Origin: a virus
IMG/VR virus record: IMGVR_UViG_3300010370_000272
Coordinates: 1-22,392 of that record
Length of the DNA: 22,392 nucleotides
Direction: 5' to 3' (one strand)
Positions within the stretch are counted from its first letter, which is position 1; every line of letters begins with the position of its first letter. Made by a program: the position numbers and the translations under genes. The notes under the pieces are model-generated. The model was not told the DNA's origin. It did not search any database and was given only the letters and a program-made list of their open reading frames with translations. This document shows, in pieces, positions 1 to 22,392 of this stretch.

Positions 1-754
1 GAGTCCTAATACCCTCAACAGACCCAGCCTGCATACGCGCATTAATACCAGTCCGTGATTGCATAGCAAGTAATTCATTGATTCCACCAGCGCCCAAACG
101 GTAACCGCGCAAAGGACCACGCAGGTTTGTCATCACCTGCTGCTGGCTCATTCCATACTGTTGTTGGAGTTGAACGCTTAGATTATCGGCAGAAAGAGCG
201 TATGAGCGATTACGGTCAACACGATTGTCAATTGTTTGACCGACTGCCTGAATAGCCTGTCCAGCCATTTGAACGTACGGATTACCTGCAAATGCTTGTA
301 GGCCGCCAAGGATTCTTCCGCCGCCACCGCCACCTGGAGGACCACCACCTGGGGGACCACCACCAGGGCCTCCTCCTCGTCCTAGCATCCCTAAGATGCG
401 CTCCATATCGTTAAATTGCTGTTGACGCATTGCACTGATATCAGCAGCAGCAGGCATGCCCTTACTGGTGTCCATATAACTAGAACCAGACTTACCACTA
501 ACCTTGCCCATAGCAGTAGCGGCTTTATTTAGTTCAGCAGTAAGGCTCTTTGTATCTGTAATTAAAGACTTAAAGTTAGCCTTAATCTTTTTAGTATTTT
601 CATTGAGTTTACTTAACTCATCATTAAGACCCTGAAGCATTTTGAGGTCAACGCTAAGGCGTGAGTTAACAACGGAATTACCCATTGTACTAGCGGCATT
701 ACCTTCGGCAGGGGTCCCAAAGGCTCCTCCTCCTAGGTTTACCTCATCTGCCAT
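1..754 (-). CDS. Tape measure protein, N-terminal 251 residues (gene runs off the left edge)
   Basis: The frame opens with ATG at 754 behind a GGAGG ribosome site and stays open to the window edge, so the 3' part is missing. Residues about 36-88 are Lys/Asn/Leu-rich and look helical or coiled-coil. Residues 127-146 are an almost pure Gly/Pro linker (repeats of PPGGG). After it comes a Gln/Ala-rich stretch. Family assignment rests mainly on context: in tailed phages the tape measure gene follows the tail tube and the frameshifted tail-assembly protein, which is the arrangement here. The tape measure sets tail length and sits inside the tube. The start lies two bases after the stop of the upstream frameshift extension, suggesting coupled translation. 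It could instead be another large tail or baseplate hub component, because the diagnostic C-terminal part is out of view. Confidence 0.7.
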   Translation of the reverse strand, partial: MADEVNLGGGAFGTPAEGNAASTMGNSVVNSRLSVDLKMLQGLNDELSKLNENTKKIKANFKSLITDTKSLTAELNKAATAMGKVSGKSGSSYMDTSKGMPAAADISAMRQQQFNDMERILGMLGRGGGPGGGPPGGGPPGGGGGGRILGGLQAFAGNPYVQMAGQAIQAVGQTIDNRVDRNRSYALSADNLSVQLQQQYGMSQQQVMTNLRGPLRGYRLGAGGINELLAMQSRTGINARMQAGSVEGIRT

Positions 755-756
755 TA

Positions 757-930
757 TTAGCCTCCGCTAGAGTTTCTCCAACGAGCCATACGAAACCAGT
801 ATGTTCGTTGTCTTACCGTCATAGATTTCAGGTCATTAAGACCAAAACCTCTATACGTAGAGGCAATCGCTTCGTATTCCCAGTAAACCCTAACTAAATT
901 AGCCAAATAAAAGTGCGACCCAATCAAGGG
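757..930 (-). CDS. Probable frameshifted C-terminal extension of the tail assembly protein
   Basis: After the stop codon (899-901) of the upstream 263-residue gene, the frame one base downstream is open from about 930 to a TAA at 757-759. It has no ATG near its start and no Shine-Dalgarno site. It encodes a protein-like, aromatic and Arg-rich segment: VRVYWEYEAIASTYRGFG, then a MTVRQRTYWFRMARWR region. It fills the otherwise unexplained gap up to the tape measure gene. The simplest reading is a +1 (equivalently -2) ribosomal frameshift, giving a fusion of about 310 residues if the slip is at the CTT codon at 911-913. Tail assembly chaperones of many phages are made this way just upstream of the tape measure gene. 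Alternatives are a separate gene starting at TTG 927 (56 residues) or a sequencing error that split one gene. Confidence 0.6.
   Translation of the reverse strand, partial: PLIGSHFYLANLVRVYWEYEAIASTYRGFGLNDLKSMTVRQRTYWFRMARWRNSSGG
899..930 (-). other. Candidate recoding (frameshift) window
   Basis: This is the only stretch where the upstream frame (stop at 899-901) and the downstream extension frame (preceding stop at 931-933) are both open, so any shift must occur here. In mRNA sense the last upstream codons are GCA CTT TTA TTT GGC TAA. CTT followed by T allows a slip to TTT, the same P-site change used at the bacterial prfB +1 site, but here the next codon is TTA, not a stop. The exact slip site is inference. 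Confidence 0.45.
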
Positions 931-1690
931 CTAATACAATCTTAGCACTACAGTGGGCGCATTGGGTTTCCACCTCTTCCATACGAGGCCCTGGCTGTGC
1001 AGAGAAAAGGGACTTGACTAACTTATTTCGGTCAGCCAATGACAACCCTCTTGCCCACGCCTCTTTTTCTAAGGTGGCTTTATTGGACATTATGCAACGA
1101 CTAAGCATCAGTGTATTTTGTTCAGCAGTCGTCTTGCCGCGCTTTCCTACAAACTGGCTATCTCCACCAGTTGGGTAACGCAATTGAACAACTTCTCCAT
1201 TTTTGAGGGTGACCTCAATTGGAGCGTGCAAATCTACCTGTGGCTGTTCAATTGTAAAATCTTTTTCCAAATCCATCGTGATATCGTTGTCCCCAGAACA
1301 CTCACGACACGTGACTTGAAACTCTCGGTAACGACCATAGGTGGCCTTAAGAACAGCCAAAAACAACACGTCTCTATCACCAACAATCAGTTCTTCTAGA
1401 ATGGCTGGTTGCTTGACAATTTCCAAATCGCCAATTGATACAACTCCACGACGAAGGAGTTGTGTCATGTATTCAGAATATGTGACATTCTTTTGAATGT
1501 CATAGGCAGACAAGATTTCTTCGTCTTCGCCATTCAACTCACGGACTGTTGCCGACATGAGCCATTCACCTTTTGATTGATAACCACGCAAAAGGTCAAC
1601 TTTAAGCGTGGTTGGAGAATCAATCTTTGGTGCAGGGTCTTGTAAAGACTCATTAACGACGGCAGCGTCAGATTCAAAGTTAGTACCCAT
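899..1690 (-). CDS. T4-type baseplate/tail assembly protein with two CxxC pairs
   Basis: This 263-residue protein starts at ATG 1690 behind AAGGAG. Its layout fits the T4_baseplate (gp26-like) family used as tail assembly factors in many myoviruses: an N-terminal helical half with the segment YSEYMTQLLRRGVVSIGDL (about 71-89), and a C-terminal part with CxxC pairs at C128/C131 and C244/C247. Together the pairs could bind one zinc ion. It lies between the tail tube gene and the tape measure gene, the usual place for the tail chaperone. The end of the gene overlaps an open reading frame in the +1 frame, which suggests that a longer frameshifted form is also made. The family call is from memory of motif and context. 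A stricter label would be conserved tail assembly protein. Confidence 0.65.
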   Translation of the reverse strand: MGTNFESDAAVVNESLQDPAPKIDSPTTLKVDLLRGYQSKGEWLMSATVRELNGEDEEILSAYDIQKNVTYSEYMTQLLRRGVVSIGDLEIVKQPAILEELIVGDRDVLFLAVLKATYGRYREFQVTCRECSGDNDITMDLEKDFTIEQPQVDLHAPIEVTLKNGEVVQLRYPTGGDSQFVGKRGKTTAEQNTLMLSRCIMSNKATLEKEAWARGLSLADRNKLVKSLFSAQPGPRMEEVETQCAHCSAKIVLALDWVALLFG

Positions 1691-19201: not shown

Positions 19202-19267
19202 TTAATTAGCAGCAAATGTTAAAACAATAAAATACTTTGTTTTTTCTTGTGCAAAACGTTGACTCAT
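19202..19267 (-). CDS. Possible 21-codon mini-ORF
   Basis: ATG at 19267 overlaps the stop of the Gly-rich gene as ATGA. The frame (MSQRFAQEKTKYFIVLTFAAN) ends at TAA 19202-19204, five bases before the next ATG, and so fills the whole gap. The next gene lacks its own ribosome site, which fits termination-reinitiation through this mini-ORF. At this length a chance frame cannot be excluded. Confidence 0.3.
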   Translation of the reverse strand: MSQRFAQEKTKYFIVLTFAAN

Positions 19268-20112
19268 GTCCTGTACCTTACATAAACGACACCAGAACCG
19301 CCGTTTCCTGCATCCGTATCTGAACCAGCACGACCACCACCACCAGTGTTTGCAGCAGCGTTTGCCACTCCAGTACCTGGTGCAGCGCCTCCACCGCCTC
19401 CGCTTCCCCCTACTCCAAATCCTTGTGTATTACTTGCACCGCCTCCGCCACCTCCAACAAGAGTGGTGCCAGCAGACTGTCCAAGCCAAAGAGAAATGTC
19501 TTTTCCTGAACCGCCAGCGCCACCAGTGCTACCAGCAGCGGCACTACCAGCACTACCAAGTCCTCCACCCCCACCACCGCTAGTGCTATTGCCAGAGCCG
19601 CCATTGGTCCCACCTTGTAGTGGGTAAGGTGCAGCGTTACTACTAGACCATGCAGGAGCAGCACCTTTTCCACTTGCTGAACCATTCACAAGAATGGCTT
19701 GACCACCACTGGGTGTAACTGTTGATGCTGTTCCAAAATTGTATGCTATTTGGGTTGCGGGGTTTGCACCACCAACACCAATTACAACTGAATAAGTTGT
19801 AGCAGGTAGATATAGAGTGGTTTCAAGATAACCACCACTTCCTCCACCCCCAGAACCAGGTCTGCCGTTACCATTCCAAGAAGTTTCTCCAGATGAACCA
19901 CCACCAATAATGATGAAATCAAAGAGACCAGCAGTAGTAACAGTTAACGTACCATCTGATGTAAACGTAATTAAACGATAAGGTTTATTACTAACAGTAA
20001 TGGCAGTACTTGCATTACTTGCAATTCCATAACTGTCAACAAAACCAAAGGTTGAGGATTTTCCCCAATTCCCAATTGCGCCTTGCTGAGTTCTAGCAGC
20101 GTACCTGCTCAT
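19264..20112 (-). CDS. Glycine-rich tail fibre/adhesin protein
   Basis: A 282-residue protein with a short N-terminal part, a beta-strand cap (YRLITFTSDGTLTVTTAGLF then DFIIIGGG, about 46-74), and a long Gly-rich body with runs of GGGG from about 90 to 265, ending in NGGSGVVYVRYRT. This layout is the Gly-rich domain found in phage and bacterial surface proteins; in T4-like phages, Gly-rich repeats form the tip of receptor-binding adhesins. It is a paralogue of the partial gene at the right edge: both share the cap and the GGSGxVxVRxR ending. The start has AAGGA upstream. Gly-rich DNA of this kind recombines easily, which would help change host range. Confidence 0.7.
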   Translation of the reverse strand: MSRYAARTQQGAIGNWGKSSTFGFVDSYGIASNASTAITVSNKPYRLITFTSDGTLTVTTAGLFDFIIIGGGSSGETSWNGNGRPGSGGGGSGGYLETTLYLPATTYSVVIGVGGANPATQIAYNFGTASTVTPSGGQAILVNGSASGKGAAPAWSSSNAAPYPLQGGTNGGSGNSTSGGGGGGLGSAGSAAAGSTGGAGGSGKDISLWLGQSAGTTLVGGGGGGASNTQGFGVGGSGGGGGAAPGTGVANAAANTGGGGRAGSDTDAGNGGSGVVYVRYRT

Positions 20113-21433: not shown

Positions 21434-21676
21434 TTAATAAGTTGGTTCAATAAATATATCAAGAATAGGGTCGTACTCAAACCCAATACCAGCATAGCAA
21501 CCACGAAAATTGTTGTTGTATGAGGTTTGCAACCATTGTCCTTCAAGACCAAGGGAAGCAATGAAAGTTTGACCAATCGGCTCACTTTCTGGAAAAGTAC
21601 CTCCACCGCAATCATCGTTGGACACGACAATTACTTGTGTAACCCTATTTTCTACTACCTGTGCAAAATGTGCCAT
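21434..21676 (-). CDS. Short fibre-associated protein
   Basis: An 80-residue protein with the order MAHFAQVVENRVTQVIVVSND, then GQWLQTSYNNN, then CYAGIGFEYDPILDIFIEP. It matches a short family seen in marine and freshwater phages near tail fibres, in which longer versions carry a WIQTSYNT segment followed by NYAGIGYTYD. It contains two Cys, C23 and C60. The start forms a TAATG overlap with the stop of the Gly-rich gene upstream, and there is no separate ribosome site, so it is translated with the adhesin. It may help fold the adhesin or attach to it, which is speculation. Confidence 0.65.
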   Translation of the reverse strand: MAHFAQVVENRVTQVIVVSNDDCGGGTFPESEPIGQTFIASLGLEGQWLQTSYNNNFRGCYAGIGFEYDPILDIFIEPTY

Positions 21677-22392
21677 TACGAGAGCCTAAACCTTACTAAG
21701 ACGATTCCAGACCCACCTGCGGAAGCACTTCCACCGCCACCACCAGTGTTTGCTGTTCCTGCTGAACCTCCGTTGCCACCACCACCAGCGCCACCAGTAC
21801 CACCAGAACTGCCACCACCACCACCACAATAGCGAGTGGTTAGGGCAGCCTCTCCACGCCATGATGATGCGTCAAATCCAGCACCACCGTTACCTCCAGA
21901 AGCAGCAGCAGAGTATCCACCACCGCCACCTCCTGGGTTTGGTGCGTTGTTGCTACCACCAGCACCAGCCTTTCCAGTCAAACCATCCACTTGTGCGGAG
22001 CCACCAAGTCCACCTGCTCCTGGAGAATCTTGTCCACCACCTCCACCACCAGATGCACCAGGAAGTCCAGCAGTACCAGCAGTGCTTCCACCTCCACCAC
22101 CAAATCCTGTCAAATCTAAAACAGTTGTAGCGGTAGAAGAAAGAAGAGTTGCACTACCGTTACGGTTAGCAGCGCCACCTGCTCCAATGGTGATATAAGC
22201 GTTGGCATTCAAATAGATAGTCTGTTGACATGGGGCACCCCCACCGCCACCTCCACCATAGGTTGTTCCACCACCACCACCAGCGCCCACAACAAGGACG
22301 TCAAACAAACCAGGAGTGGTAACCGTTAACGTCCCCGATGCAGTAAACGTCAACATCGTGTAAGAGATTCCACCTACTGTTATGTTGGCTGA
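21676..22392 (-). CDS. Glycine-rich tail fibre/adhesin, 5' end outside the window
   Basis: The frame is open to the right edge. An internal Met at 22356 is not the start, because the 12 codons before it (SANITVGGISYT) match the region ahead of the same cap in the gene at 19264-20112. The visible part has the strand cap (LTFTASGTLTVTTPGLFDVLVVGAGG), a body of Gly runs with Ala/Ser/Asn, and the ending GGSGIVLVRFRLS. This is a Gly-rich adhesin paralogous to the one 1.5 kb away. A role in receptor recognition is likely. At least 239 residues are present. Confidence 0.7.
   Translation of the reverse strand, partial: SANITVGGISYTMLTFTASGTLTVTTPGLFDVLVVGAGGGGGTTYGGGGGGGAPCQQTIYLNANAYITIGAGGAANRNGSATLLSSTATTVLDLTGFGGGGGSTAGTAGLPGASGGGGGGQDSPGAGGLGGSAQVDGLTGKAGAGGSNNAPNPGGGGGGYSAAASGGNGGAGFDASSWRGEAALTTRYCGGGGGSSGGTGGAGGGGNGGSAGTANTGGGGGSASAGGSGIVLVRFRLS

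Follow-up and report, generated by a model that had tools for sequence, protein, structure and literature searches.

A candidate +1 frameshift at CUU-YUA, with a conserved upstream RNA helix, in a T4 gp26-type tail assembly chaperone gene

Gene order and the two frames of the chaperone locus

The window is a stretch of 22,392 nucleotides of viral DNA (IMG/VR record IMGVR_UViG_3300010370_000272). It carries a set of tail genes, all on the minus strand, in the order sheath, tube gp19, gene A, ORF B and tape measure:

3833-2349, minus strand: sheath, in a block of minus-strand genes
2339-1716, minus strand: tube gp19, the upstream neighbour of gene A
899..1690, minus strand: gene A, putative short form of the tail assembly chaperone (TAC-N); 263 aa, T4 gp26-type, two CxxC pairs, stop codon TAA at 901-899
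757..912, minus strand: ORF B, putative +1-frame extension (TAC-C); first codon after the slip TAT at 909-907, 50 codons, stop codon TAA at 759-757
2..754, minus strand: putative tape measure protein, running off the window; ATG at 754, two bases after the ORF B stop

The tape measure protein is assigned from its position, and weak profile matches are consistent with that. Near the other end of the fragment, two long glycine-rich proteins of similar make-up are encoded at 19264-20112 and 21676-22392; these are possibly related paralogues serving as tail fibre or adhesin.

Gene A matches PF12322 (T4_baseplate) at 43.9 bits in a Pfam profile search (E 2.8e-11; cut-off 24.5 bits) and phrog_150 in a PHROGs search (E 2.9e-12). 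It is the single PF12322-type chaperone in the 22 kb record, which is itself a fragment. AF2 models were made with A and B folded apart. The model of A has a pLDDT of 89.6, and that of B has three confident helices at a pLDDT of 91. A fold search for the chaperone placed HK97 chaperone 2ob9 at the top by probability (0.72), yet at an E value of 0.86, with YqbN 3klu at 0.28. For B, the PDB fold search gave no match, and Pfam and PHROGs gave weak tail-protein matches only. From the sequence matches, we infer that A and B would act as a tail assembly chaperone.

A sequence-only reading of this DNA had A ending at 899 after 263 codons, followed by a frame open for 57 codons that stops two bases before the tape measure ATG. 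These coordinates are right: A runs 1690-899, and the +1 frame relative to A is open from 930 to 760, with its stop TAA at 759-757. The frame arithmetic, 1690-927 = 763 = 1 mod 3, gives an offset of +1 (or -2), in agreement with that reading. The predicted A-B fusion is about 310 aa long and reads ...DWVAL-YLANLVRVYWEYE... across the junction.

Relatives were gathered as 80 loci from a viral contig search, more from a profile search and 20 from genome contigs. The junction was compared in 79 distinct window-type relatives, whose A proteins range down to about 42% identity. ORF B is in the +1 frame in all 79, far more often than chance would give, and is never fused to A; it is also in the +1 frame in every scoring distant actinomycete or BRock relative. 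Its conserved pattern is YWEYExIASxYxGFxLxDxKxMTVRQRxxWxxMAxWR, and its median dN/dS is 0.158 versus 0.134 for A. A ratio this low, and this near to that of A, indicates that B is under purifying selection. It had been suggested that homologues with the two frames fused would betray a sequencing error, and there are none among the relatives. Likewise, we found no support for a pseudogene in which A and B had once been one frame. The same one-base offset recurs in 79 distinct sequences from many samples, plus isolated phages and chromosomes. Its conservation across independent assemblies refutes error or decay as the source of the split, and we give these essentially no weight.

The start codons of the B frame address whether B could instead be a separate small gene, translated by re-initiation or by internal initiation from a GAGGUG sequence. 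As had been noted, the window has no ATG in this frame before YWEYE; the only start-like codons are TTG at 927 and TTG at 905. Neither is conserved as a start among the 79 relatives, and 30 of these have no ATG, GTG or TTG at all upstream of YWEYE. Some loci do offer an apparent start. The TTG at 905 overlaps the stop of A in 19/79, a GTG at -59 has GAGGUG upstream of it in 16/79, annotators of Streptomyces phages call B from internal starts, and Pseudomonas phage Cygsa01 has an ATG overlapping the stop. However, stops in the B frame block upstream internal initiation in many relatives, and the conservation of B begins at the codon directly after CUU. GAGGUG was considered as the start signal for B and rejected, because it is in the wrong frame or blocked in most alleles. 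The downstream frame is thus conserved in 79/79 without a conserved start, and a start of its own for B is very improbable.

The CUU-YUA site and its UUU_C counterpart

In 19 of the 79 relatives, a stop codon keeps the B frame shut up to 23 nt before the stop of A; therefore, a shift would be confined to about the last eight codons of A. Within these eight, only Trp257 and the pair CUU-YUA are invariant. The sequence-only reading had located the overlap in a 32-base segment holding CTT TTA TTT GGC TAA; that segment is 930-899, the motif lies at 913-899, and the putative shift site can be narrowed to its first two codons:

908..913, minus strand: shift site CUU_UUA; P-site CUU predicted to slip +1 to UUU, with UUA in the A site

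CTT followed by TTA or CTA stands exactly four codons before the stop of A in 79/79. When codon changes are counted over a tree of 83 A genes, there are none at CTT and 16 at the codon after it, each of them a swap of TTA and CTA. The counts at seven further conserved Leu columns are 34-40. The codon after YUA varies (UUU, UUC, CUC, CUG, CUU), as does the stop codon of A (TAA 58, TGA 17, TAG 4). Codon use per 1000 in the window is 7.1 for UUA, 5.3 for CUA and 27.7 for CUU. Judged from this usage, UUA and CUA would be rare, slow Leu codons for the A site.

Since CUU is invariant and, followed by U or C, re-pairs one base forward as UUU or UUC, the geometry is more readily explained by +1 than by -2. 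A -2 slip at the same place, back two bases on YUA or UUY, would end in the same frame, and geometry alone cannot separate the two. According to the PRFect authors, some apparent +1 sites proved to be -2 (PMC10885494). However, YUA moved back by two sits on UUU or UUC and is mismatched in the CUA alleles (23/79), and the codon after YUA is a variable one. The invariant third base of CUU would also have no clear role in a -2 slip, in which no re-pairing explains the conserved bases. We regard a -2 shift as highly unlikely.

The +1 slip on CUU has precedent. CUU_U is the RF2 shift site and was by far the most efficient among 32 variants tested, and in the Ty1 site CUU is followed by a hungry or slow sense codon (PMC5009743). 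According to the PRFect authors, +1 shifting lacks a known general motif (PMC10885494). There is no Shine-Dalgarno sequence within 25 nt of CUU in 56 of the 79 relatives, and therefore the RF2 type of stimulator is absent from most of them. A search for a 3' stimulatory structure found none (median z 0.01).

On this comparison of sequences, A is very probably the short form (TAC-N), and A+B the long form (TAC-NC), of one chaperone expressed through a programmed +1 frameshift at CUU. The earlier reading of a frameshifted tail chaperone is thereby supported and narrowed to CUU-YUA. Both the occurrence of the shift and its rate are things that we infer. With CUU in the P site and a slow UUA or CUA in the A site, the tRNA-Leu on a ribosome translating A would re-pair one base forward on UUU or UUC, and B would then be read. 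Ribosomes that do not slip would terminate three codons later and release the short form.

More distant relatives keep B in the same +1 frame with a slip codon that is one base different, UUU_C. These include the Streptomyces phages BRock, LuckySocke, pSt2308 and GiJojo and contig loci from Streptomyces, Nonomuraea, Saccharothrix, Actinomadura and Terracoccus. By tblastn, the A proteins of these Streptomyces phage and actinomycete relatives are roughly 29-36% identical to that of the window. Seventeen members of the class were examined, including one Proteobacteria and one Bacillota metagenome contig. TTT-C is present in 17/17, at a distance of four codons from the stop of A in 15 and of three codons in L179 and L190. 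A forward slip by one base on UUU_C gives perfect re-pairing, on UUC. Among the Phe codons of the chromosomal loci, TTT accounts for about 10% (73/724), and among those of the BRock phages for 18%.

B is annotated as a separate hypothetical protein in BRock (L081 3779-3961), LuckySocke (L082 3827-3982) and GiJojo (L084 3779-3976), with its start placed inside the conserved region and the shift not annotated. Loci L180-L191 are PF12322 chaperones with a +1 extension in actinomycete chromosomes. One of these, L182, lies in a cluster with a sheath, a gp19 tube and a protein in the tape measure position that has NlpC/P60 and SLT domains. Such a locus may be a prophage or a tail-like particle. In three Lysobacter MAGs (L192-L194), the chaperone homologue ends TTT TTT TTG and is followed by no recognisable B in any frame; these possibly use a different shift or none.

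An RNA helix upstream of the slip codon

The RNA around the junction can form a two-part helix, whose strands in the window are:

970..977, minus strand: outer helix 5' strand AGAGGUGG; contains the Shine-Dalgarno-like GAGGUG and the Val240 codon GTG
961..967, minus strand: inner helix 5' strand ACCCAAU; pairs with 924-918, from alifold and pair counts
918..924, minus strand: inner helix 3' strand AUUGGGU; ends 4 nt upstream of CUU (913-911)
909..916, minus strand: outer helix 3' strand GCACUUUU; includes the slip codon and must open when the ribosome is on CUU

In the consensus, the outer helix pairs codons 238-241 (GGAGGUGA) with codons 259-261 (UCACUUYU, slip codon included), and the inner helix pairs codons 242-244 (ACCCARU) with codons 256-258 (AYUGGGU) over 7 bp. 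In a scan of 151 windows across A+B in 40 sequences, the junction is the only strong consensus structure, at -6.95 versus -1.0 for the next independent window and a median of 0. Of the helix cells, 94% are paired, and shifting the partner along by one, two or three columns lowers this to 37-61%; the helix is a post hoc finding, and invariant bases account for part of this pairing. Doubly changed cells number 39, versus 12.6 +/- 4.4 in shuffled data. The pair 962/923 joins the third bases of codons 243 and 256, both synonymous. It has 4 shared changed branches versus 0.6 expected, which puts it at rank 16 among 5264 comparable pairs. Taken alone, the AC-forbidden association at this pair is weak: it falls in the top 34 of 4442 pairs, and many of those are tied. 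The minimum-energy fold of the window's own sequence is a different one at -20.0, and enforcing the helix gives -17.5, i.e., 2.5 kcal/mol worse. Rfam has no real match, and no such structure is found in the UUU_C class.

The helix bears on two of the invariant codons. The Val240 codon is GTG throughout the tree of 83 A genes, for which the helix offers a reason. Since CUU itself pairs within the outer helix, part of its invariance could also stem from RNA structure. One relative, L145, retains CUU although its outer-helix pair is broken.

With CUU in the P site, the outer helix could not be formed. The 7 bp of the inner helix, melted by the passing ribosome, would refold just behind it, 4 nt from CUU, and so stimulate the shift. 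Cho et al. tested upstream hairpins with spacers of 2-5 nt (PMC3639245). A small hairpin refolding behind the ribosome lowered -1 shifting, best when close in, with the effect halved from 2 to 5 nt, and such a hairpin raised +1 shifting at CUUCGGC in yeast. The inner helix, with its conserved 7 bp and 4-nt spacer, has this layout. From this analogy, the conserved upstream helix probably stimulates the +1 shift. The frameshift could also be real and the helix unrelated to it, serving for example to hide the Shine-Dalgarno-like GAGGUG or as a processing site. The outer strands hold the slip codon and GAGGUG and must be open during the shift, and the UUU_C class does without the helix, both of which fit an unrelated role. 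However, this is the sole strong consensus structure in A+B and it ends at the shift site, with a spacer in the published range. We treat an unrelated helix as a possibility to be kept in mind, on the doubtful side. A stronger form of the stimulation proposal is that the hairpin, refolding during translation directly upstream of CUU-YUA, drives the ribosome forward. The two together would make a natural self-contained bacterial +1 cassette, which a large group of environmental phages would use instead of the -1 heptamer of lambda or the gene duplication of T4. We consider that proposal evenly balanced between being right and being wrong.

The products would then divide the work as in lambda G/GT, where the short form coats the tape measure and the long form recruits the tube protein (PMC5009743). 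The short form would be the majority of the molecules and coat the tape measure, and the few long molecules would recruit tube protein.

T4-type chaperones and known frameshift systems

T4 gp26 and gp51 are paralogues, both in PHROG 150. The hhalign alignment of the A-B fusion profile with T4 gp51 extends across B (E 3.3e-6), and the one with gp26 covers A only (E 1.5e-5). B alone against the gp51 tail gives P 0.008, or 0.0003 with BRock-type rows, which is above all 60 shuffles but weak. The two T4 proteins have been described as short and long forms from separate genes with no shift (Vladimirov, Gautam and Davidson 2022, as cited in PMC10885494 and PMC12846349). The link between the two is therefore no novelty of this comparison.

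By eye, a B-like extension also appears at +1 in cyanophage S-SCSM1, Streptococcus phage GXN1, Bacillus SP-15 and one uncultured large phage, and at -1 with U_UUU_UUC in S-RIM8 and Vibrio phage Bakedbeans. The GXN1 overlap (L091 3700-3745) holds CCC_CGA, which could plausibly serve as another kind of +1 site. The annotation of several phages lists the extension separately, as a hypothetical protein or under the name 'baseplate hub assembly catalyst'. The proteins of that name in S-SCSM1 (+1; L087 4685-4874) and S-RIM8 (-1, U_UUU_UUC; L088 4679-4869) look like frame-shifted gp26 extensions and not independent proteins. That in Cygsa01 (-1; L090 3309-3482) also looks like such an extension and has its own ATG over the stop. 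Among T4-type chaperones, T4 thus has a duplication, some cyanophages and Vibrio phages apparently a -1 shift, and the window class and the Streptomyces phages apparently a +1 shift.

Most tailed phages shift backwards in their tail chaperones, and the forward version is rare. Xu, Hendrix and Duda reportedly treated frameshifted tail assembly chaperones, lambda G/GT among them, in 2004. That phage tail chaperones use frameshifts is already known; few +1 cases have been documented, and the signals behind them are ill defined. For T4-type chaperones, a +1 CUU-YUA site preceded by a conserved helix seems new, with no earlier description in the literature searched, which lacks most subscription papers. 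Nature supplies this one site in 79 distinct alleles, in which the codon pair is invariant, the spacing is fixed and the upstream helix covaries. What a 5' structure contributes to forward shifting can therefore be tested directly.

Among known systems, T4 gp26/gp51 is close: A is of the same family, and the additional C-terminal part of gp51 aligns with B, weakly when B is taken alone. T4, however, has separate short and long genes, and the window, a fragment, shows one gene and a putative shift. Like lambda G/GT, the pair stands just before the tape measure, between it and the tail tube (likewise in L182). It has a short form and a C-terminal extension in an overlapping second ORF near the 3' end that has no conserved start codon. 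In contrast to lambda, which shifts -1 on a heptamer, the window has its second frame at +1, with CUU-YUA as the putative site and UUU_C in the distant relatives, and its protein is of the T4 gp26 family, not G. The wider kind of tail chaperone also admits +1 forms (PMC5009743). The haloarchaeal myovirus HSTV-2 is like the window in this respect, its tail chaperone being very likely shifted +1, as summarised in PMC5009743. Bacterial RF2 (prfB) shares CUU in the P site and the +1 move to UUU (79/79 in the window class), but its A-site codon is UGA and a Shine-Dalgarno sequence lies 3 nt upstream, where the window has a sense YUA and no close Shine-Dalgarno. The yeast Ty1 site, CUU_AGG_C, is likewise CUU followed by a slow sense codon; it operates with a different tRNA set, whereas the window has Leu YUA as its A-site codon and a conserved upstream helix.
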